IMG/VR virus record: IMGVR_UViG_3300043774_000656
Location: 59,305-123,304 of that record
Length of the DNA: 64,000 bases
Source: a virus
Strand: one strand, 5' to 3'
Both the position numbers and the translations under genes were made by a program. Shown here piece after piece: positions 15,758-62,631 of this stretch; position 1 is the first letter of the stretch, and each line of letters begins with the position of its first letter. A model generated the notes under the pieces. The model searched no databases and was not told the DNA's origin. It saw nothing but the letters and a program-made list of their open reading frames with translations.

Positions 15758-16774
15758 TTATCCTGGAAATGAACCCATAAATGAAAGAGGGGTATTGTTT
15801 CCGCTTGAACCACTTGAACCACTTGAACCTGAAGAACCATCTGTGCCAGATGTACCGCTTGAACCAGAAACTCCAGTCCCACCTGATGTACCACTTGAGC
15901 CAGAAACTCCTATTGCACCAGACGTACCTGAAGAACCATCTGTGCCAGATGTACCACTTGAGCCAGAAACTCCAGTCCCACCTGATGTACCTGAAGAACC
16001 ATCTGTGCCAGATGTACCACTTGAGCCGGATGCACCTGTTGCTCCTGACGTACCTGAAGAACCGTCTGTGCCGGATGTACCAGAGCTACCTGATGAACCA
16101 CTACTACCACTTGAACCAGACGAGCTCGATGAACCACTGCTACCACTTGTGCCGTTTGCTCCTGATGTACTTACCTGTACACCTATAAGTATTATAAGAT
16201 CAGTGTTATTTGGAAAATTTGTACTACCGACACCATTAGATGATATCAATGTGACAGGATAAGTCCAGTAATTATTAGGAACTGTAGTCGGTGTGCCATT
16301 TACTTTCCAGATCTGATAATCCACAGAGTTATTTCTATCTTGAATTATTATCTGCTGGTTGATTTGAATAAGACCTAAAATTACATCTATATCCTGGTTG
16401 TTTTGGTCAAGATGATCTATACTAATGCTAGTAGAGTTTATCTGCGTCGCATTATTCCAGATGATATTTCCAGCACCTGGGTCGCCTGACTGTATAGTAG
16501 TTTCAGCAGCATAATCAAATAAACTTGAAGATGCACCGTTTATACCACTGGTACCGTTTATACCACTTGTGCCTGAAGTACCGGCAACACCGCTGGTTCC
16601 TGAACTACCTGCAGTACCTGAGCTACCTGCAGTGCCTGAAGGTCCAACTGGACCTGGTGCACCAGGTGAGCCTAGAGTTTGCCAGGCAGATCCATTCCAT
16701 TCCCAGGACTCTCCTGTAGGAAGTGTGTATATCTGTCCGATACTTAACGGCGGTGGTGGAAAACTTATTGGCAT
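15758..16774 (-). CDS. collagen-like fibre protein 1 (338 aa)
   Basis: N-terminus MPISFPPPPLSIGQIY and WEWNGSAWQ (carbohydrate-binding-like), a first short G-x-y block (about 35-80), a globular beta domain (about 85-205), then over 100 residues of G-x-y triplets rich in GTSG and GSSG. Triplet repeats of this type form trimeric triple helices in phage fibres. Pro is scarce, so stability would come from Thr/Ser. The codon repeats also open long mirror ORFs on the plus strand, which are not genes. Confidence 0.88.
   Translation of the reverse strand: MPISFPPPPLSIGQIYTLPTGESWEWNGSAWQTLGSPGAPGPVGPSGTAGSSGTAGSSGTSGVAGTSGTSGINGTSGINGASSSLFDYAAETTIQSGDPGAGNIIWNNATQINSTSISIDHLDQNNQDIDVILGLIQINQQIIIQDRNNSVDYQIWKVNGTPTTVPNNYWTYPVTLISSNGVGSTNFPNNTDLIILIGVQVSTSGANGTSGSSGSSSSSGSSGSSGSSGSSGTSGTDGSSGTSGATGASGSSGTSGTDGSSGTSGGTGVSGSSGTSGTDGSSGTSGAIGVSGSSGTSGGTGVSGSSGTSGTDGSSGSSGSSGSSGNNTPLSFMGSFPG
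15787..16147. repeat. collagen-like codon repeat
   Basis: Degenerate 9-nt repeats (gly-thr/ser-ser codons; plus-strand look CCAGATGTACC etc.) covering the C-terminal triplet region of collagen-like protein 1. Prone to slippage and to copy-number change. Confidence 0.85.
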
Positions 16775-16778
16775 ATTT

Positions 16779-18002
16779 TTATCTTGTTATTTCCTCCCAG
16801 TCCATAGATCCATAGACCGTTTCGCCGTTGGTGGAAGCAGCTACGGCTAAACATATTTCATGCGGATCCGGGATAAAAGGATCACGTTCAAGCTGAAATC
16901 TAAAAAGGGCCTCTTTAAGAACGTCGGTGTTTACTGATGCTTGTATAGTGGATGAAAGATATCCTGTAGCAAGCGTTCTACCACCAGAAACGCCTGTTCC
17001 GGTGATGTTATATTCTACTGCAGAATCGGCACCTGCTGATACCCACGATCCGCCGGCAGTTGTACAACTTTCAAGCATTTTCCAATTGTATTTTCCAGTA
17101 CCAGCTCCCATAATTGAAAGAGCTGAAATAATTGCAATTGCGTCTAACGCTGTAGTTTTTAATCTTATGCTAATAATAGGATAGTATGTTCCTCCAGTTG
17201 CAAGAGAAACTGGGGTAGTAATAGGCGTAACGACAGCCTGTTGAACTCCATGCATTTCATATCCGCCTTCAGATATTACCGAAGAACATATTTGTTTAAA
17301 TGTACTACCTGTTACAGTACCTGCAGTATTAAAGATCTCATATCGTAGAGGTAATGATGCAGTAGTAATATATGTTGATGTGATAATGTTTGCGTGATGA
17401 AATATGTGACACGTATGAAACTCACCATTAATGACAAATCCACAACGAACACTGCCTACGCCTAGCCATTCAAAGTCCATAAAGAGGATTTGCGCCTTAG
17501 TAATATCTAAGGTAATACCAGAAGGACCGGTGCCATCCATTGGATCTACATTCCAGGAAGCTTGTGCAACTGGCGTATCAACAAGTACGCCAGTTACGGA
17601 ACTCCTCTCTACAAGTGAAAGCGTAGAATTTGCTAATTGCAAAAACATACCGTTTGCTGCTCCGTAATAACCAACTCTTTGTGTTAGGCCTGACTGCGCA
17701 GGTGCCATAACAAATGTATTAAGAGCTAGGAGACTCTTGCCAGGCTGATATGCAAACACCTTATAGGTTTCACGTCTTATCGTTGATCCCGATGCGGCTG
17801 TCACATTTAGGTTTACTAAACCTTCGTTTGCATCAAAAACAGCGGTACCGCCAGTGGCAGTTTGAGTAGCCCAAAGACCGTTATCTTTGTAACGATGTGA
17901 CGAATCGAAAAGCGTAAACGGCTCTGATATACGCAATCTTCCGAATGAATCGAAATTATTAGTATATGCAAACTTTATTTTATCCGTGTAGGTGTACGAC
18001 AT
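16779..18002 (-). CDS. virion structural protein (407 aa)
   Basis: Starts MSYTYTDKIKF and continues NFDSFGRLRISEP, a signature I know from structural proteins of large myoviruses (capsid or tail decoration). Beta-rich throughout; receptor-like second half. Lies between the two collagen-like genes in a cluster of five virion genes read leftward with 4-14 nt gaps. Exact location on the particle cannot be told. Confidence 0.8.
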   Translation of the reverse strand: MSYTYTDKIKFAYTNNFDSFGRLRISEPFTLFDSSHRYKDNGLWATQTATGGTAVFDANEGLVNLNVTAASGSTIRRETYKVFAYQPGKSLLALNTFVMAPAQSGLTQRVGYYGAANGMFLQLANSTLSLVERSSVTGVLVDTPVAQASWNVDPMDGTGPSGITLDITKAQILFMDFEWLGVGSVRCGFVINGEFHTCHIFHHANIITSTYITTASLPLRYEIFNTAGTVTGSTFKQICSSVISEGGYEMHGVQQAVVTPITTPVSLATGGTYYPIISIRLKTTALDAIAIISALSIMGAGTGKYNWKMLESCTTAGGSWVSAGADSAVEYNITGTGVSGGRTLATGYLSSTIQASVNTDVLKEALFRFQLERDPFIPDPHEICLAVAASTNGETVYGSMDWEEITR

Positions 18003-18008
18003 ATTTCT

Positions 18009-18890
18009 TTATATTGTTTTCCAGGAATTGTTTCTGAATAAAAAGTTTAATGACATTCTATCTATTTTCATCAATACTGATGATTCTCCATTGATTAGTT
18101 GTCCACCTTGCCCTTGTACCAGTATGCCTCTGTTGCCATAGCTTATACCTCCTACCTCATCTGCAATATTGATAAACTTTCCTTCATCAGAAGGCACAGT
18201 TCCTAATGGGAGTGTAATAGTACAAACTCCTGTATTATATGTAACTCCATAATATTCGTATGCAAAAGTCGGAGAATAGGTTGAAGTGTTAATATAACTT
18301 GCCTGATACGTAACATTACCTAATTGTGTAGGCTGCATCCAAAGATACTGTGTTCCATCCCATACCCAAACATATTCTATACCGTTGTCATTGTCAATCC
18401 ATCTTGCTCCTACATTAGTAGGATCTGGTGACGGACGTGTCGGTTGGTAGTAAAATTCAGTAACACCTGAAGTACCAGATGAGCCAGATGAGCCAGATGA
18501 GCCAGATGAGCCAGATGAGCCAGAAGTTCCTGTTACACCACTTGTACCAGATGTACCTCTAGTTCCCGATGTACCATCTATACCTGATGCTCCTGTTGCA
18601 CCGCTTGTACCAGATGTACCTCTAGTTCCAGATGTACCATTTACACCACTTGTACCACTTGAACCTCTAGTACCTGAAGTACCGCTTTGACCATTTGTAC
18701 CTGAAGTACCATTTGTACCTCCTCCGCCACCACCACCTCCATTTGTACCAGATGTACCACTTGTACCTCCACCTCCAATGTTTAATGGAAAACCTAAACC
18801 GTCGTAGTAGTTACCTGCGCCATCGGTTTGAACTACTCGTTCAAACGTAGAAGATATAAGTTTATTGGTTAAATCAAATGGTCCTGGCAT
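18009..18890 (-). CDS. collagen-like fibre protein 2 (293 aa)
   Basis: About 40 N-terminal residues (MPGPFDLTNKLI) are followed by about 100 residues of G-x-y triplets (GTSGTSGTNG, GGGGGG, GSSGSSG), then a beta-rich C-terminal domain from about 145 that opens FYYQPTRPSPDP and has the pattern ARWIDNDNGIEYVWVWDG. Fibre with a triple-helix shaft and a globular tip. The tip differs fully from that of fibre 1, suggesting swapped receptor domains. Confidence 0.87.
   Translation of the reverse strand: MPGPFDLTNKLISSTFERVVQTDGAGNYYDGLGFPLNIGGGGTSGTSGTNGGGGGGGGTNGTSGTNGQSGTSGTRGSSGTSGVNGTSGTRGTSGTSGATGASGIDGTSGTRGTSGTSGVTGTSGSSGSSGSSGSSGSSGTSGVTEFYYQPTRPSPDPTNVGARWIDNDNGIEYVWVWDGTQYLWMQPTQLGNVTYQASYINTSTYSPTFAYEYYGVTYNTGVCTITLPLGTVPSDEGKFINIADEVGGISYGNRGILVQGQGGQLINGESSVLMKIDRMSLNFLFRNNSWKTI
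18466..18775. repeat. collagen-like codon repeat 2
   Basis: Nine-base repeats encoding the G-x-y shaft of fibre 2; a run of five identical GAGCCAGAT units is seen on the plus strand at about 18481-18525. Confidence 0.85.
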
Positions 18891-22149: not shown

Positions 22150-22425
22150 ATGAAATACTTCCAGTTATTCGAACAATTTATAAACGAGTCGATCTACGAT
22201 ATCGTTGGACGCAAGCAATTAAGAGTAGTTATTGAAGGTGACCCTGTTGCCAAAAATCATGAAAACATCCTGGCTGCTATGCTTAAAGCTGATAATGAGA
22301 ATAGTCTTAAATTCTTTGAAGCAACAGGTAAGATAGTAGGTAATATCACTAAGGTTAGACTTGATGCTATTAAGAGAGACTTGCGTTCTATTTCAAAAGA
22401 TATCGTTATCAGAGAAAAGAAATAA
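22150..22425 (+). CDS. small protein with capsid-targeting-like tag (91 aa)
   Basis: N-terminus MKYFQLFEQFINESIYD is nearly the same as MKYFKLFEQFISE of the 2H phosphoesterase 39 kb away, while the rest differs. The rest is basic and helical. Ends before a structured RNA stretch and a strong terminator, so a plus-strand island inside a minus-strand region. Confidence 0.72.
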   Translation: MKYFQLFEQFINESIYDIVGRKQLRVVIEGDPVAKNHENILAAMLKADNENSLKFFEATGKIVGNITKVRLDAIKRDLRSISKDIVIREKK

Positions 22426-25428: not shown

Positions 25429-25478
25429 TTATGGTGTAAATATACTATGAAAAGTTGGAAAGTGAAAGTCTTTTGCAG
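25429..25478 (-). promoter_or_regulatory. early-type promoter of the RadA-like gene
   Basis: CTGCAA, AAGA, CTTT, 20 nt, TATATTTACACCAT. All boxes at standard spacing. Confidence 0.8.
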
Positions 25479-34249: not shown

Positions 34250-34290
34250 CTTTGGCCAGAACAAATGTCATTGTATATTTACACCATAAC
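34250..34290 (+). promoter_or_regulatory. early-type promoter, first on plus strand
   Basis: T-tract, CTTT, 20 nt, TATATTTACACCATAAC. Start of the long rightward region. Confidence 0.8.
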
Positions 34291-36709: not shown

Positions 36710-36716
36710 CAAAAAT

Positions 36717-36822
36717 AGTCAGGTGGCGGAATTGGAAAGTCAATTGGAGAGTCATAAACAGGAAAGATACCATATGACATCGGTGGTAAATGCCAATACA
36801 GGTTCGATTCCTGTCCTGACTA
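36717..36822 (+). ncRNA. tRNA-like element A (no normal D or anticodon arm)
   Basis: Acceptor stem AGTCAGG/CCTGACT is a perfect 7 bp; T arm ACAGG-TTCGATT-CCTGT is perfect; discriminator A then C. The 5' part GTCAGGTGGCGGAATTGG copies elements B and C. The centre (70 nt) forms other helices: ATTGG/CCAAT, GTCAT/ATGAC, TACCA/TGGTA. No 7-nt anticodon loop is seen, so not an ordinary tRNA. Confidence 0.6.
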
Positions 36823-36824
36823 CA

Positions 36825-36977
36825 ATGAGTAAGAGATACTCAGAGTCTTCGAATCAAGACTTTAAGAATGATTCCGCAGAATGTCTACGGCGCGAGTGGG
36901 ACATCGTGGGAATAAAGGGAGCAGACACAGCCCCTCCCAGTAGTGTTGATTTATGGTTTCATGTGGTAAGACACTAA
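36825..36977 (+). CDS. doubtful small ORF (50 aa)
   Basis: ATG 2 nt after tRNA-like element A; MSKRYSESSNQDFKNDSAEC. Could be a real small protein or part of a structured RNA (AGTCTT/AAGACT and GGGAG/CTCCC hairpins lie inside). A longer frame starting at 36672 runs through element A and is rejected. Confidence 0.3.
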   Translation: MSKRYSESSNQDFKNDSAECLRREWDIVGIKGADTAPPSSVDLWFHVVRH

Positions 36978-37045: not shown

Positions 37046-37134
37046 GGTCAGGTGGCGGAATTGGTAGACGCACCGAGTGAGCGGCGGAGGTAATAGTCAA
37101 TAACTCCTAACAGGTTCGATTCCTGTCCTGACTA
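37046..37134 (+). ncRNA. tRNA-like element B (Leu-like body, abnormal anticodon arm)
   Basis: Acceptor GGTCAGG/CCTGACT (G-U at the end), D arm GCG-GAATTGGTAGA-CGC as in bacterial tRNA-Leu, T arm ACAGG-TTCGATT-CCTGT, A73; CCA not encoded. Between D and T arms, 37 nt fold only as CCG-AGTGAG-CGG and GGAG-N14-CTCC; no 5-bp stem with a 7-nt loop and U33 can be drawn. Closest of the three to a true tRNA; an annotation tool may call it tRNA or pseudo-tRNA. Confidence 0.6.
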
Positions 37135-37151
37135 CAAAAACAAGATAGATT

Positions 37152-37955: not shown

Positions 37956-38092
37956 AAGGATTCATGAGTATCGTGATATTGCTAATGGCCCTGTTTATGG
38001 TCATACCAATGTTTTTGCTAATTTTTGAACATATGATGGAGGGTAAAGACTCGATTTTGCAGAAATTGCTGAATAACATCACAGAAGTATAA
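37952..38092 (+). CDS. small membrane protein (46 aa)
   Basis: MKGFMSIVILLMALFMVIPM then LLIFEHMMEGKDS: N-terminal membrane helix and short tail. Begins in an ATGA overlap and ends 4 nt before tRNA-like element C. Confidence 0.6.
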   Translation: MKGFMSIVILLMALFMVIPMFLLIFEHMMEGKDSILQKLLNNITEV

Positions 38093-38096
38093 AACT

Positions 38097-38224
38097 GGTC
38101 AGGTGGCGGAAGAGGGTATTTCCGGATAAAACCCCAGGTAGACGTATAGTTGGTGAAATCCCGAGGCGGGTAATTATTACATAAGCCCCTAACTATGTTG
38201 CAGGTTCGAATCCTGCTCTGACCA
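38097..38224 (+). ncRNA. tRNA-like element C (expanded, 128 nt)
   Basis: Acceptor GGTCAGG/TCTGACC, T arm GCAGG-TTCGAAT-CCTGC, A73 then C. D loop split by a hairpin insert (GGGT-N13-ACCC at about 38114-38134) before AGGTAGACG. The centre forms ATAGTT/AACTAT closing CCCG-AGG-CGGG and GTAA-TTA-TTAC hairpins in place of an anticodon arm. Shares ends with elements A and B. Confidence 0.58.
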
Positions 38225-38243
38225 CTAAAATAGATATTAGTAA

Positions 38244-57494: not shown

Positions 57495-57730
57495 TGTATA
57501 ACTTTTATCTAATAGCATATAAACCGGAGCTCAGTGAACCTGTATTTGAAAGGTTTATGCTGACAGAAGATGATGCTAAAATTGCTGGCTTTGAAAATTT
57601 TGCAGAATATTGTAATGCTGTGTTAAATCAGATTACAGAAGAATGTGAAAACGCACAGGCAAGATATATCCTCTTGAACCAAGAGGAATATATGAAACTA
57701 ATTATAAGAATGGGAGAAAAGGTATTATGA
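57494..57730 (+). CDS. hypothetical protein (78 aa)
   Basis: MYNFYLIAYKPELSEPVFER; acidic alpha/beta. Overlaps mgsA by 1 nt and the receiver-like gene by 4 nt. Confidence 0.66.
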   Translation: MYNFYLIAYKPELSEPVFERFMLTEDDAKIAGFENFAEYCNAVLNQITEECENAQARYILLNQEEYMKLIIRMGEKVL

Positions 57731-58143
57731 GAATATACTTAGACGACTTAAGAACGCCAAAAGAAAATGACTGGACTGTTGTACGAAACTACGAAGAGTT
57801 CGTCAACAAAATTACAGAAATTGGCTTGGATAAAATAGAATTGATCTCTTTAGACCATGATCTTGGCGATTCAGCAATGGCTGAATGGTGTAATAATGTT
57901 TATCAAAACTATACCTTAAACTACGATAACATTACTGAGAAGACAGGTATGGACTGTACTAAATGGCTCGTTGAACAATGGTTAAATGGAGCACCGGTCT
58001 GTAAGGTGATGGTACATTCTGCGAATGCCGTAGGATCAGCAAACATGATGGGCTATATCAATAACTATAGACATATCCATCGTTTACCTCAAGATTGCGA
58101 AAGATGGGTTGTACCCCATACTATCGAAACTATAATTGAGTAA
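57727..58143 (+). CDS. cyclic-phosphate processing receiver-domain-like protein (138 aa)
   Basis: YLDDLRTP at 4-11, ISLDHDLGD in the middle and MVHSANAVGSANMMGYIN in the last third match the receiver-like 'cyclic-phosphate processing' domain described next to RNA-repair genes. Acidic pockets (LDD; LDHD) stand for the receiver Asp cluster. Just before a phosphatase-kinase-ligase set, which supports an RNA-end role. Followed by a terminator. Confidence 0.78.
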   Translation: MRIYLDDLRTPKENDWTVVRNYEEFVNKITEIGLDKIELISLDHDLGDSAMAEWCNNVYQNYTLNYDNITEKTGMDCTKWLVEQWLNGAPVCKVMVHSANAVGSANMMGYINNYRHIHRLPQDCERWVVPHTIETIIE

Positions 58144-58146
58144 ACT

Positions 58147-58179
58147 GCAAAGCCCTTTGAAACATGGGCTTTGCTTTTT
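58147..58179 (+). terminator. intrinsic terminator overlapping next promoter
   Basis: Stem GCAAAGCCC/GGGCTTTGC with a 10-nt loop, then TTTTT. The 3' arm and U-run are also the spacer of the promoter at 58155-58190. Confidence 0.9.
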
Positions 58180-58190
58180 ATATTTACACT
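58155..58190 (+). promoter_or_regulatory. early-type promoter inside a terminator; near-leaderless start
   Basis: CTTT (in the loop), 20 nt, TATATTTACACT, then ATG directly. Terminator and promoter share bases. Confidence 0.7.
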
Positions 58191-58853
58191 ATGAAAATCG
58201 AACTACAAAAGGGACAAAGGCTTTGGTTTACAAGTGACACCCACTATAATCACTCTAATATATGTAGGGCAACTACAAGATGGAAAGATTCTGATAATGT
58301 GACACGTGATTTTAGTTCATTAGAAAAAATGAATGACGAATTAGTGTTCTGGATAAATGAAAGAGTAGCCCAAGATGATATCTTAATACACCTAGGTGAT
58401 TGGTCGTTTGGCGGTTTTGATAGCATCAAACAGTTCAGAGATCGTATTATTTGTAAAAATGTACACTTGGTACTCGGTAATCACGATCATCATATCCAGA
58501 GAAACAAAGATAATGTACAATCACTTTTCAGCTCAGTACATGACTATTTACATCTAGATGTCTGCTGGTGGGTTAAAGAATGGAAGGTAGCTAAAAAAGA
58601 GCGCCAGCATTTTATTTGTATGCACTATCCTATTGCCAGTTGGAATGGAATGAATGACGGAGTGATTCACTTACATGGTCACGTTCACTTACCCAACCAT
58701 TTAAGAGTATCAGACGGTAAAGCAATGGATGTCGGTGTTGATGGAAACGAAATGGAACCTATCAGCTTAGAAAATATATTAACGATCATGAGGAATCAGC
58801 CAGTTGCTAAACTGGCTTTGCCAAAAGATCATCACGAAAAACGATTAGTATGA
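58191..58853 (+). CDS. calcineurin-like metallophosphoesterase (220 aa)
   Basis: Start at 58191 (MKIELQKGQRLWFTSDTHYN); upstream codons are promoter. Metal motifs in order: SDTHYNH (Asp16, His18), LGDWSFGG, LGNHDHH, MHYP, LHGHVHLPNH. Phosphatase or cyclic phosphodiesterase. As part of the kinase/ligase set it probably heals 2',3'-cyclic or 3' phosphate RNA ends, the job of the phosphatase half of Pnkp. Confidence 0.9.
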   Translation: MKIELQKGQRLWFTSDTHYNHSNICRATTRWKDSDNVTRDFSSLEKMNDELVFWINERVAQDDILIHLGDWSFGGFDSIKQFRDRIICKNVHLVLGNHDHHIQRNKDNVQSLFSSVHDYLHLDVCWWVKEWKVAKKERQHFICMHYPIASWNGMNDGVIHLHGHVHLPNHLRVSDGKAMDVGVDGNEMEPISLENILTIMRNQPVAKLALPKDHHEKRLV

Positions 58854-59239
58854 ACACACTAGTATTACTTAGAGGTTTACCCGGAAGTGGCAAATCAACC
58901 ACGGCAAAGTTATTTGATAAAGCTCCTCATTTTGAGGCTGACATGTATTTCATGGATGCCGATGGAAACTATCAGTTTGATGTATCTAAAATCAAAGATG
59001 CCCATAACTGGTGCCGACATTCTACAATGGATGCCATGAAAAGGGGATATCCTATTGTTGTCGTTTCAAATACGTTCACTCAAGAATGGGAAATGGAGGC
59101 ATATTATCTGTTAGCTGAAGAACTCGGATATCGTGTAGTTTCAATGATTGTTGAAAATCGGCATAATGGTAAAAACATACATGGTGTACCAGCTGATAAG
59201 TTAGAGATAATGAAAAACAGATTTGAAATAAAACTATGA
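58850..59239 (+). CDS. P-loop polynucleotide-kinase-like protein (129 aa)
   Basis: Walker A RGLPGSGKST (8-17), FEADMYFMD (substrate Asp), WCRHSTMDAM, and VVVSNTFTQ, the AAA_33/N4BP2-like kinase type that includes 5'-OH polynucleotide kinases. Overlaps the phosphatase gene by 4 nt. With phosphatase and ligase it makes a split Pnkp-Rnl set. Confidence 0.88.
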   Translation: MNTLVLLRGLPGSGKSTTAKLFDKAPHFEADMYFMDADGNYQFDVSKIKDAHNWCRHSTMDAMKRGYPIVVVSNTFTQEWEMEAYYLLAEELGYRVVSMIVENRHNGKNIHGVPADKLEIMKNRFEIKL

Positions 59240-59397
59240 CACTTTTCGAAGCATTAATGAGCAAAGGCTACTCATCAGATGAAGCCAGACAAGTTGTATT
59301 TGAAATGAAAGAGAGAGTTCTCCAGGGTGAAGATCCGGAAGAACTTTTATACGAAGAAGGGCTAGAACCCGATTATATAATGGACTTACTTATGTGA
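59236..59397 (+). CDS. small acidic helical protein (53 aa)
   Basis: MTLFEALMSKGYSSDEARQV, acidic. Overlaps the kinase gene (4 nt), ends 2 nt before the ligase start. A partner protein of the repair set is possible. Confidence 0.65.
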   Translation: MTLFEALMSKGYSSDEARQVVFEMKERVLQGEDPEELLYEEGLEPDYIMDLLM

Positions 59398-59399
59398 TT

Positions 59400-60512
59400 A
59401 TGAAATACGCACACTACGATAAACTTGAAAAATACATGGCAGATGGTCTGATTGAGGTGAATAAGCACCCTGATCTGCCTCTGTATATCTACAACTATTC
59501 TCGTAAAGTGCAGTATGAGAGACTATGGGACGAAGTAACTATAGGATGTAGAGGTCTTATCCTTGATGAGACAGGTGAAATAATTGCTAAAGGCTTCGAC
59601 AAGTTCTTTAACTTTGAAGAGGTTGGAGAATTAGACTGGGCTTCTACAGAATATGTTTGGGTTCAGGAGAAGATGGACGGTTCACTGGGTATTCTTTTCT
59701 ATTATGCAGACAAGTGGCATCTGGCAACCAGAGGTTCTTTTACTTCAGAGCAGGCAAAACGAGGAATGGAAATCCTGAAGAAAAGATATGACCTAAATAA
59801 GTTTGTCAAAGAGGCAGTCTTTGTTTGTGAAATCATTTATCCTGAGAATAGAATAGTTGTTGACTATGGCGGTGAAGAAAAGATCGTCTTCTTGTCAGCA
59901 TTCTCTAATGACACGGAACTTTCTGTAACTACAGCGCAGATGCTGTTCTTTGTTTCTGGAGTAAATGTTGAAGATATTGTACTTACAAACCAGGTATATG
60001 ACGGTTCAAATCAGTCAATGCTTCAATTTCTAAAAGATCAGAATGCTGAAAACAGAGAGGGTTATGTAGTCAGACTGTGGCCATCTAATACCAGGGTTAA
60101 AATCAAGTTCGAGGAATATGTACGTCTACATAGACTGTTTACTAATTTCTCAAATCTAGATATCTGGGAATATCTAAAAGAGGGCAAAGACATAAACGTT
60201 CTCTTAGAAAATGTTCCTGATGAATTTGATAAATGGGTTAAAGGCACAATATCAGATTTGAGATATCATAAGTATAAAATTGAAGAATACGCCGGAAAGG
60301 TCCATGAGTATTTTAGATATGGCAAATACGGTGATGTGGATCCAGAGCCTACAAAAAAGGAGTTCGCCCTACATCTTGAGAAATGTGACATGAATCCTCG
60401 TGTAAAAGCCCTATGCTTCATGATCTGGGACGGTAAGAATATTGAAAAAAAGGTCTGGGACATGGTCAGACCTAAGTACCAGAAACCATTCTGGAGTAAG
60501 GAAGATAAATAA
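59400..60512 (+). CDS. RNA ligase, T4 Rnl1 type
   Basis: Joins 5'-phosphate to 3'-OH RNA ends with ATP. N-terminal YNYSRKVQYERLWDE and CRGLILDETGEIIAKGFDKF, then motif I EKMDGSLG with Lys91 as the adenylated residue, EGYVVRL near 220 and KIKFEEYVRLH (motif V). 370 aa against 374 in T4 Rnl1, and the C-terminal helical domain is present. Start at ATG 59400. In T4, Rnl1 with Pnkp repairs tRNA cut by host anticodon nuclease. Confidence 0.92.
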   Translation: MKYAHYDKLEKYMADGLIEVNKHPDLPLYIYNYSRKVQYERLWDEVTIGCRGLILDETGEIIAKGFDKFFNFEEVGELDWASTEYVWVQEKMDGSLGILFYYADKWHLATRGSFTSEQAKRGMEILKKRYDLNKFVKEAVFVCEIIYPENRIVVDYGGEEKIVFLSAFSNDTELSVTTAQMLFFVSGVNVEDIVLTNQVYDGSNQSMLQFLKDQNAENREGYVVRLWPSNTRVKIKFEEYVRLHRLFTNFSNLDIWEYLKEGKDINVLLENVPDEFDKWVKGTISDLRYHKYKIEEYAGKVHEYFRYGKYGDVDPEPTKKEFALHLEKCDMNPRVKALCFMIWDGKNIEKKVWDMVRPKYQKPFWSKEDK

Positions 60513-60529: not shown

Positions 60530-61879
60530 ATGGAGAATATATTTAATCTTAAGAACTTTACAGAGTTTGTAAACGAGGCAGTAAGAACAAAAGATGCACC
60601 TAAAGCATTTGACCTGATTGCTTCATACATTTCTAGAAAAATGGGAGAGCAACTTTACCCATATCCAGAATTTGAAAGATATTCAAAAAGTGATGGCTCA
60701 TCCGGTTTCGGTAAGAGATATTACACTGACAGCGCAAAATCTGTAAGATTAAATGTTGAAGAAAGTGAAGGTTCTACTGACATCACTTCTATTGACTATT
60801 GGGATGGTAGTAGTTCTGAACCCGCATGGACTATTGATGGCCATGGTCAGAGTCTTGCTAAAGTTTTACCACAGGTTGCTGACAGACTTGTAAACCCAGA
60901 AGCTGAACTGGTTGCACCAGATGAGGTAAATGAGGCAAAGAAAGTTGATGGTAATATGATAAAAGATATCATCAAACTTAGCAGCCAAATGAATGCAAAA
61001 CAAATTGCTAGTCAAGTTGGTTTAAGCCCTAAATCAGTTCGTGAAATCCTGAAAGAGAATAATGTAGTTAGTGCACGCCCTGCTGCTAAAGAAAAGAGAG
61101 AAGAGTCGACAAGTGAAATCGACATGATCTTCAATAGTGAATCAGCTTTAAAAGATAAAGTTAAATTGCTTGATGAGATCATGGAAGATATTGCAGACGT
61201 TGTAAACGCCGTTGCTCTTGGAAATGTTAATGGTCTTATGATCTCAGGTAAAGCAGGTACTGGTAAAACACATACAGTTACTTCGGCTCTTGACAAAGCA
61301 AGTTGCCAATATGTAACAATAGCAGGTTCTACAAGTACTCCGGGTATTGTTGAAACTCTTTATGATAACAACAACGGCGTAATTGTATTCGATGACTGTG
61401 ACAGTGTATTCGATGAGCAAGAAAGTAGAAACATTCTTAAAGCAGCCCTTGACACTAAAAAGGTACGTACTATCTCCTATATGAAGAAGAACCCTAAGTT
61501 CTACGATCCTGAGAAGATTATGTCACCTGAGCAACTTGAAGAGGTTGAAACCGCAGGTCGTATTCCTAATCGTTTTGAATTTACAGGTCGTATCATCTTT
61601 ATTTCTAACCTTAAGAAAGAGAAACTCGATCCAGATGGTGCAATTCGTTCAAGAAGTTTGATTATTGACGTTTCACCAGATGACATGACTATCATGGAGA
61701 GAATGAAGCGCATGCTTAAATTCATGGAACCAATGGACATGTCAATGGAAGAAAAGGAAGAAGTCTTTGAATTTATTAAAGACAGTAAAAACGTTTCAAT
61801 GAGAACATTTGTGAAAGCTGCCTTATTCAAGCAAACCGGTTGTTCAAACTGGAAGAGAATTTTGACCCGTTACGTTTAA
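60530..61879 (+). CDS. AAA+ ATPase with HTH and capsid-targeting-like tag (449 aa)
   Basis: Tag-like start MENIFNLKNFTEFVNEAVRT (FVNE-A). Then an unknown beta domain, a helix-turn-helix-type segment at about 152-176 (AKQIASQVGLSPKSVREIL), AAA+ core with Walker A GKAGTGKT at 240-247, Walker B VIVFDDCD at 284-291 and sensor/second region RFEFTGRIIFISN. The family of phage AAA+ proteins is known without a firm role. If the tag is real, an ATPase enters the capsid, which is unusual. Confidence 0.83.
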   Translation: MENIFNLKNFTEFVNEAVRTKDAPKAFDLIASYISRKMGEQLYPYPEFERYSKSDGSSGFGKRYYTDSAKSVRLNVEESEGSTDITSIDYWDGSSSEPAWTIDGHGQSLAKVLPQVADRLVNPEAELVAPDEVNEAKKVDGNMIKDIIKLSSQMNAKQIASQVGLSPKSVREILKENNVVSARPAAKEKREESTSEIDMIFNSESALKDKVKLLDEIMEDIADVVNAVALGNVNGLMISGKAGTGKTHTVTSALDKASCQYVTIAGSTSTPGIVETLYDNNNGVIVFDDCDSVFDEQESRNILKAALDTKKVRTISYMKKNPKFYDPEKIMSPEQLEEVETAGRIPNRFEFTGRIIFISNLKKEKLDPDGAIRSRSLIIDVSPDDMTIMERMKRMLKFMEPMDMSMEEKEEVFEFIKDSKNVSMRTFVKAALFKQTGCSNWKRILTRYV

Positions 61880-62631
61880 GATAACTCAAATCTAATTTTA
61901 GATCCATCTGGCTTGCTGTAGACCAGATGGGTTGGGGTTACGGTGTATGCTTTATCTGCTAGACGCTCTACATACTTTGGACCTTCGCCCTTCTTTAAGT
62001 ATGCCACGGTCATATGTGGCTTATAATCAGGATATGATGTTGTATGTGGAAGTTGTCTTAAATTGAAATTACAACCATGTAGAGTTGGATTTTCAGCCTC
62101 CATCTTTAAGACGTCAAAATCATTTTGAAATAATCCGGCGCTGTGTAGTTTAATAGTACCTGCTAAGCCTCTGGCAGCTTCTTTAACCTGCTCATCTGTT
62201 ACCTGGCTACTGTGTATACCATAAAGTAGAGTAACGTGCGGTTCATCTTCAAGACCCTTTTCATTTGAGTCAAGATCTTTTGGGTCAACCAGGTCATGGA
62301 GATCTCCCATTTCTGGAAAATCAAAATATACCATTACACAACCATAATCATAGGTCACCTTGGCCTCATCCACACCCAGTTGCTTTTTAACTTCTGCTCT
62401 AACTTTTTCCATTTTCTGTGCGTATTCTGGGTCACTCTTTTTATTAAATGCTATCTGTTGATTAAGGCTTCCAGTAATTTTCTGCATATCACCGTCTCTG
62501 GTTTTAATTAACCATTTTGCCAAATCTTTAATTCCAAGATCTCTGAATCTGCCTTCGGCATCTGGTGCATCACTGTGGTGAAAATCTCCTATTTCGGAAA
62601 TAAATTGCTCAAAAAGTTTAAAGTACTTCAT
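61876..62631 (-). CDS. 2H phosphoesterase with capsid-targeting-like tag (251 aa)
   Basis: Tag MKYFKLFEQFISEIGD, almost the same as that of the gene at 22150. Then a helical region and a 2'-5' RNA ligase-like 2H domain: first HVT at 132-134 (EPHVTLLYG) and second HMT at 206-208 (KPHMTVAYL), preceded by YGCVMVYFDFP. Family enzymes open 2',5' or cyclic phosphodiesters, including cyclic signalling nucleotides. Opposite strand and 4-nt convergent overlap with the AAA+ gene. Confidence 0.85.
   Translation of the reverse strand: MKYFKLFEQFISEIGDFHHSDAPDAEGRFRDLGIKDLAKWLIKTRDGDMQKITGSLNQQIAFNKKSDPEYAQKMEKVRAEVKKQLGVDEAKVTYDYGCVMVYFDFPEMGDLHDLVDPKDLDSNEKGLEDEPHVTLLYGIHSSQVTDEQVKEAARGLAGTIKLHSAGLFQNDFDVLKMEAENPTLHGCNFNLRQLPHTTSYPDYKPHMTVAYLKKGEGPKYVERLADKAYTVTPTHLVYSKPDGSKIRFELS

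Follow-up and report, generated by a model that had tools for sequence, protein, structure and literature searches.

A tagged 2H phosphoesterase, probably packaged in the head of a T4-like phage, as a candidate injected counter-defence enzyme

Tagged 2H phosphoesterase and its genomic setting

The window, by which we mean the whole 64,000-nt stretch of DNA analysed, forms the end (final 64 kb) of a viral contig 123,304 bp long and encodes a 2H phosphoesterase that is probably packaged in the phage head and injected with a counter-defence role, whichever substrate it acts on. Its first 13 residues match the T4 head-loading label and its relatives are mostly tagged, and it is therefore probably carried in the particle and injected with the DNA. 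The preliminary description had proposed an injected anti-CBASS enzyme. The delivery half of that proposal is well supported by comparison: the tag has the spacing of the T4 CTS, most family members examined are tagged, tag style follows that of each contig, unrelated tags stand on near-identical enzymes, tagged genes form a run in one relative, and head genes of T4 type occur in relatives. The Acb1-type substrate half was not established, as the protein fell under the Pfam Acb1 cut-off, the lid motif was absent, structural comparison gave a tie, and the surroundings were those of RNA repair. We favor an injected enzyme that would act in counter-defence on RNA ends bearing 2',3'-cyclic phosphates; an Acb1-like enzyme that degrades the signal comes close behind. 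The computed findings concern the sequence and predicted fold, how well the motifs are conserved, the spacing of the tag, and the tags of the family with their agreement with each phage's own tag style; packaging, cleavage, injection and substrate are inferred.

The source is a T4-like phage. T4-like genes in the contig included those for an Rnl1-type ligase, PhoH, DNA ligase, thymidylate synthase and a helicase, and a reading of the ORF list placed baseplate-like and replication genes in the first half of the contig. Because the best isolate matches to the 2H protein were phages of Maribacter, a flavobacterium, the host probably belongs to the Bacteroidota. Gene calls were made mechanically, and tag motifs were defined as simple patterns.

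The boundaries first given for the 2H gene proved exact, with an ATG start on the minus strand (Table 1), and both HxT motifs (HVT and HMT) were recovered, with the H and T of each invariant in 54 aligned sequences. The fusion of the 2H domain to a tag, running from M1 to E13 at the N-terminus, was also borne out; tag and enzyme domain are separated by ∼78 residues, mostly a separate helical module that the preliminary description had not mentioned. Comparison with an 87%-identical relative (L006) gave a dN of 0.083 and a dS of 1.11, and by this measure the gene is under strong purifying selection.

The AAA+ neighbor does carry its own tag, as described earlier. The AAA+ and 2H genes are convergent, with a 4-nt overlap at the 3' end of the 2H gene, and the AAA+ tag and the gene arrangement are also kept in L006. 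The AAA+ core (PHROG 1250, unknown function) had matches in 1,233 phage records, many of them T4-like; the version in the window consists of this core, the tag and an added N-terminal region.

Table 1. Positions in the window of the 2H phosphoesterase gene, its parts, and neighboring or similarly tagged genes.
Feature	Position	Strand	Remarks
Tagged 2H phosphoesterase gene	61876..62631	-	ATG start, 251 aa
N-terminal capsid-targeting-type tag MKYFKLFEQFISE, aa 1-13	62593..62631	-	predicted prohead-protease cut after E13
Helical module (SDAPDAEGRF...KKQLG), aa 20-86, separating enzyme from tag	62374..62574	-	
2H phosphoesterase domain, aa 93-251	61879..62355	-	pLDDT mostly >90
First HxT motif, H132-V-T134	62230..62238	-	H132 and T134 invariant, 54 sequences
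Second HxT motif, H206-M-T208, inside YPDYKPHMTVAY	62008..62016	-	H206 and T208 invariant, 54 sequences
AAA+ gene with own tag MENIFNLKNFTEFVNE, 449 aa	60530..61879	+	PHROG 1250, 1.8e-40
T4 Rnl1-type RNA ligase, untagged	59394..60512	+	PF09511 7e-18, PHROG 562 1e-59
PNK-like P-loop kinase, untagged	58850..59239	+	PF13671 1.8e-11, PHROG 505/8238
Metallophosphoesterase, untagged	58164..58853	+	PF00149, PHROG 547 2e-40
cREC cyclic-phosphate-processing receiver domain protein, untagged	57727..58143	+	PF20274 3.8e-24
91-aa protein with nearly identical tag MKYFQLFEQFINE	22150..22425	+	without PHROG match

Capsid-targeting tags and delivery

The spacing of the tag, F7-x-x-F10-I11-x-E13, is that of Y4-x-x-F7-I8-x-E10 in the T4 internal proteins IPII and IPIII, both of which start MKTYQEFIAEA (read from NC_000866). 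In T4 tag mutants, residues 4 and 7 mainly serve targeting and residues 8 and 10 permit processing, and cleavage by the T4 head protease falls after (L/I)xE (PMC9026906). As in CTS cargo, the targeting aromatics and the (I/L)xE site lie within 10–20 N-terminal residues, and the tag is conserved in L006. The AF2 model showed residues 2–13 as a helix, at low confidence. Similar tags also occur on several unrelated proteins of the same phage, another trait of CTS cargo; of the contig's 162 called genes, 17 had tag-like N-termini, versus 5.1 ± 2.2 expected from shuffled N-termini. A shared motif ahead of the tagged genes, such as a late promoter, was looked for and none was seen.

Two proteins encoded outside the window contained internal tag-like sites (SVFESIINEA, TFNDFIFESA, TFESFINEIS), as if the head protease cut them into pieces. 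The larger, of 1,114 aa, includes a cytidyltransferase domain (G000:C1:6752-10096, minus strand) and the other has 287 aa (G000:C1 5433-6296, minus strand).

A scan of IMG/VR gave at least 597 pattern matches; 492 of these viral stretches encode relatives, and 80 were fetched. The strict tag motif stood at the N-terminus in 56 of the 80, versus about 10% after N-terminus shuffling, but these loci are partly redundant and not all independent, so that the tag percentages are descriptive. An origin of the motif as an artefact of trying several start codons was rejected, since the shuffled control with the same starts gave 10% versus 70%. Most relatives had an extension of 10–25 residues ending in hydrophobic-x-E directly before the enzyme domain, without the helical module. 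Tag styles among them were KLFEEFxxE, KLxDLLxE, RMQxLAGxIxE and RIKxLMGxxE. Tag-like starts were present in the huge-phage relatives LR745206 and LR756502; four of the loci (L007, L009, L012 and L013) had untagged 2H relatives, and those of the Maribacter phages and of Microbacterium phage Pumpernickel had no tag-like start. In the 635-kb phage LR745206 (L008, 3974-5287), a single 438-aa frame combined a tag-like start, the 2H domain and an apparent DEDD-type exonuclease domain.

The 2H tags resembled other tags of their own contigs (mean best score 20.3 versus 15.2 ± 1.0, with none of 10,000 permutations as good). Two relatives, L030 and L048, had enzyme domains that were 83% identical and unrelated tags (RMQELAGIIVE and MIKLLDLLKE) joined at the same residue. 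Both the own-contig match and this swap are expected if the tag must fit the scaffold and protease of each phage and the enzyme is cargo. In a 256-kb contig (G006, the contig of L021), the 2H gene lies among twelve tagged genes at 193,196-199,513, a block that is a candidate run of injected-protein genes. Among these genes, one encodes a P-loop kinase/zeta-toxin-like domain and one a GNAT domain, and the others scanned had no Pfam match. The run consists of nearly consecutive small genes, each starting with a tag of the KLFEEFxxE type.

A protease of the S77 family was found in 27 of the 43 records searched, T4 being included as a control, and a Gp23-type capsid gene adjoined the S77 protease in all five large relatives tested. 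Neither gene was found in the 123-kb contig of the window or in its nearest relative, L006, because both are fragments. In five contigs (G002, G003, G006, G012 and G028; L144-L148), the S77 match lay within a frame of 604–670 aa beside the capsid gene, which suggests a protease-scaffold fusion.

Late in infection, the 13-residue N-terminus would bind the prohead core, like the T4 internal proteins, and a prohead protease of the gp21/S77 type would cut after E13. The mature enzyme would remain in the head and leave it together with the DNA on injection into the next cell. On the comparative evidence, packaging and injection of the 2H protein are highly probable.

Helical module between tag and enzyme

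The module was modelled as four helices (AF2), and it was absent from the aligned 2H relatives except L006. It is encoded at 90 viral loci, either alone as proteins of ∼80 aa or behind tags on other proteins. No PDB fold match and no significant Pfam match was obtained for the module. A tblastn search with the N-terminal 91 aa against phage records also gave no match, though copies of the module abound in viral contigs of uncultured origin. There, the 67-aa sequence SDAPDAEGRFRDLGIKDLAKWLIKTR... was very widespread (L154-L232; 56–96% identical); some copies are stand-alone proteins (MAKKRPTWKDSDAPDAEG...), and others lie behind capsid-type tags, fused to varied domains.

Enzyme domain and candidate substrates

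The AF2 model built from 54 aligned sequences had a confident 2H (LigT-like) fold (pLDDT 87), and the HxT motif pair and LigT-like fold by which the 2H superfamily is recognized are both present. Beyond the HxT pairs, C98, F168, K176, N188, Y203, P205 and Y211 were invariant in the 54 sequences. Pfam matches of the protein were to 2_5_RNA_ligase2 (1.1e-5), Acb1 (5.5e-5) and LigT (1.9e-4), all slightly under the curated cut-offs, and PHROG 755, 'RNA ligase', was matched at 6.7e-11; PADLOC returned nothing for the 2H protein. The HxT pair is very likely to hydrolyze a linkage of the 2',3'-cyclic-phosphate type or a phosphodiester beside a 2'-OH, in a reaction that would be metal-free. As to the substrate, 2',3'-cyclic-phosphate ends of RNA produced by host anti-phage ribonucleases are the leading candidate, which we hold tentatively at somewhat under an even chance. 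A cyclic-oligonucleotide signal, as for Acb1, seems rather unlikely, and another cyclic nucleotide, such as ADP-ribose cyclic phosphate, less likely again.

An injected Acb1-like enzyme would destroy CBASS-type cyclic oligonucleotides on DNA entry, before the signal builds. The closest solved relative by sequence profile was indeed Acb1 (9q2g, E = 0.0028), and hhalign over the second HxT region gave 1.3e-6 for Acb1 versus 0.027 for Escherichia coli ThpR, with the same context of the second HxT motif as in Acb1, HDFDDYTPHITLSY. Every one of the 54 aligned members matched the Acb1 model PF23474 (E < 0.01), whose cut-off was exceeded in 23 of the 43 records, including T4. Residues W74 and F107 of Acb1, which belong to the base-stacking positions named for that enzyme (PMC9117128), align with the invariant F168 and with Y/F200, so that aromatics occupy two stacking positions. 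T4 internal proteins, moreover, are counter-defence factors (PMC3012670).

Against such an enzyme, the window protein reached 23.4 bits with PF23474, below the cut-off of 27, versus 202 for T4 Acb1 and 27–33 for some relatives. The C-terminal lid of Acb1 (E141 and W147; E-P-L-x-L-x-W) had no counterpart by sequence comparison, and the family C-terminus is instead a beta strand with YSxPDGxKxxI. Of the residues invariant in the family beyond Acb1 (K176, N188 and C98), K176 has no matching lysine in the Acb1 alignment, and T4 Acb1 has no F-x-x-F-I-x-E tag. Models of RNA 2',3'-cyclic phosphodiesterases matched at similar strength, and the gene neighborhood suggests RNA repair. The 2H fold and HxT/HxT tetrad are shared with Acb1. 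We consider an injected Acb1-like enzyme unlikely.

Structural comparison gave Z scores (VIA) of 12.9 for Usb1, 12.8 for a Pyrococcus horikoshii ThpR-like protein, 12.4 each for CPDase and Acb1, and 12.2 for LigT; as these scores are tied, structure was taken as evidence for neither Acb1 nor the RNA enzymes. ThpR/LigT and plant CPDase resemble the window protein in fold (Z about 12–13), motifs and C-terminal strand. In contrast to ThpR, it lies far below the TIGR02258 cut-off (22.7 bits versus 65.7; 44 of the 54 members match weakly), and its profile match to E. coli ThpR was marginal. A tree of 2H domains was set aside as a means of placing Acb1 or ThpR, being unreliable with very long branches.

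RNA-repair genes and the remaining alternatives

An RNA-repair cassette had been noted near the 2H gene, and its members were all identified (57727-60512): cREC, metallophosphatase, PNK-like kinase and T4 Rnl1-type ligase, none of them tagged (Table 1). Phage 2H enzymes and cREC have been predicted to remove 2',3'-cyclic ends so that RNA ligases can act (PMC7824862). Under the favored reading of an injected enzyme acting on RNA ends, the cleared ends would be resealed by the phage-encoded kinase and ligase. As a counterpoint to the RNA-end role, the kinase/metallophosphatase/ligase cassette, which is like a split bacterial Pnkp, might suffice for end healing with no 2H enzyme involved. The kinase, phosphatase and ligase of the window matched separate parts of the 737-aa PHROG 8238, and the three genes in a row look like the pieces of a divided Pnkp-type protein.

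Across contigs, the proximity of RNA ligases to the 2H gene was a modest signal. An RNA-ligase gene lay within 10 kb of the 2H gene in 14 of 33 contigs versus 6.5 expected (p = 0.002), or in 10 versus 5.3 expected once near-duplicates were removed (p = 0.02), in a distance test that ignored circular permutation. Many ligases were distant (median 31 kb, not below expectation). A cREC gene was present in 27 of 43 records, and at a set of loci the 2H gene had, within 6 kb, genes for a kinase, phosphatase, ligase or cREC, none tagged.

These associations would also suit an ordinary cytosolic RNA-repair enzyme, made during infection as a partner of the kinase and ligase, whose N-terminal helix has no delivery role. 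The repair genes adjoin the 2H gene in the window and lie close by at other loci, untagged relatives exist, and a role in RNA repair has been predicted in print (PMC7824862). Yet the tags occur far above the shuffled expectation, are written in the phage's own style and are exchanged between near-identical enzymes. The repair genes proper are untagged, and in G006 the 2H gene sits in a tagged run with the RNA ligases ∼193 kb away, all of which makes a purely cytosolic enzyme improbable. Still less probable is a packaged enzyme that serves the head or the DNA (e.g., by clipping RNA or nucleotide fragments while packaging proceeds) rather than the next host: T4-like heads hold ∼1,000 internal protein molecules, many of them cleaved, and ejection cannot be told from a tag alone, but T4 internal proteins and CTS fusions enter the cell with the DNA (PMC9026906), and head maturation has no known need of a 2H enzyme.

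Comparison with known systems and significance

The favored reading, an injected counter-defence enzyme, has a close model in IPI, IPII and IPIII of T4. Shared with these are the short F/Y-x-x-F-I-x-E tag, the many unrelated proteins behind similar tags, the T4-like genes of the contig, and S77 and Gp23 in relatives. The T4 internal proteins differ in not being enzymes of the 2H kind; IPI, for instance, is a small inhibitor. In the family studied here, an enzyme forms the cargo and persists in many phages behind changing tags, and one relative has a dozen tagged genes together. The Jumbo Phages survey of 2021 (PMC7824862) likewise reported 2H, cREC and ligase in one phage, which in the window are close together, but its text contains neither 'capsid targeting' nor 'internal head' and mentions no capsid tag on 2H proteins. 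An open-access literature search, which may miss papers on tagged internal proteins, found no capsid-tagged 2H enzyme.

More broadly, T4-like phages, many of them uncultured, may carry large, exchangeable sets of injected effectors, comprising diverse enzymes with tags matched to each phage's own protease and scaffold and sometimes arranged in dozen-gene runs. The 2H enzyme would be a widespread member of such sets, clearing a nucleotide-based alarm or damaged ends of RNA ahead of any phage gene expression; we put this general picture forward as a tentative one, at a little less than even odds. If true, capsid-delivered counter-defence enzymes would be widespread beyond a few models (T4 IPI, the P1 Dar proteins), and the tag would offer a sequence-only way of listing injected effectors in uncultured phages. 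It would also permit a direct test of which defence nucleotide or RNA end vanishes at entry. Tag styles could, in addition, help to assign head proteases to the orphan contigs they belong with.

Other features of the window

GTGTAAATATA, a motif embedded in a longer conserved sequence, TTGTTATGGTGTAAATATAC, occurred at 14 exact sites between small genes (2537-58179), for example at 25434, 31415 and 34025 on the plus strand and at 34274, 44886 and 58179 on the minus strand. It is perhaps a phage promoter for one gene class. Two plus-strand stretches, 36711-36825 and 38091-38227, repeat the ends of a tRNA-Leu gene (37046-37135) and may be degenerate or unusual tRNA genes, although ARAGORN called no tRNA in them. 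Long arrays of 9-nt repeat units resembling CCAGATGTACCT occupied 15800-18800 on the minus strand. The encoded proteins would therefore repeat a short peptide, perhaps as collagen-like tail or adhesion repeats.
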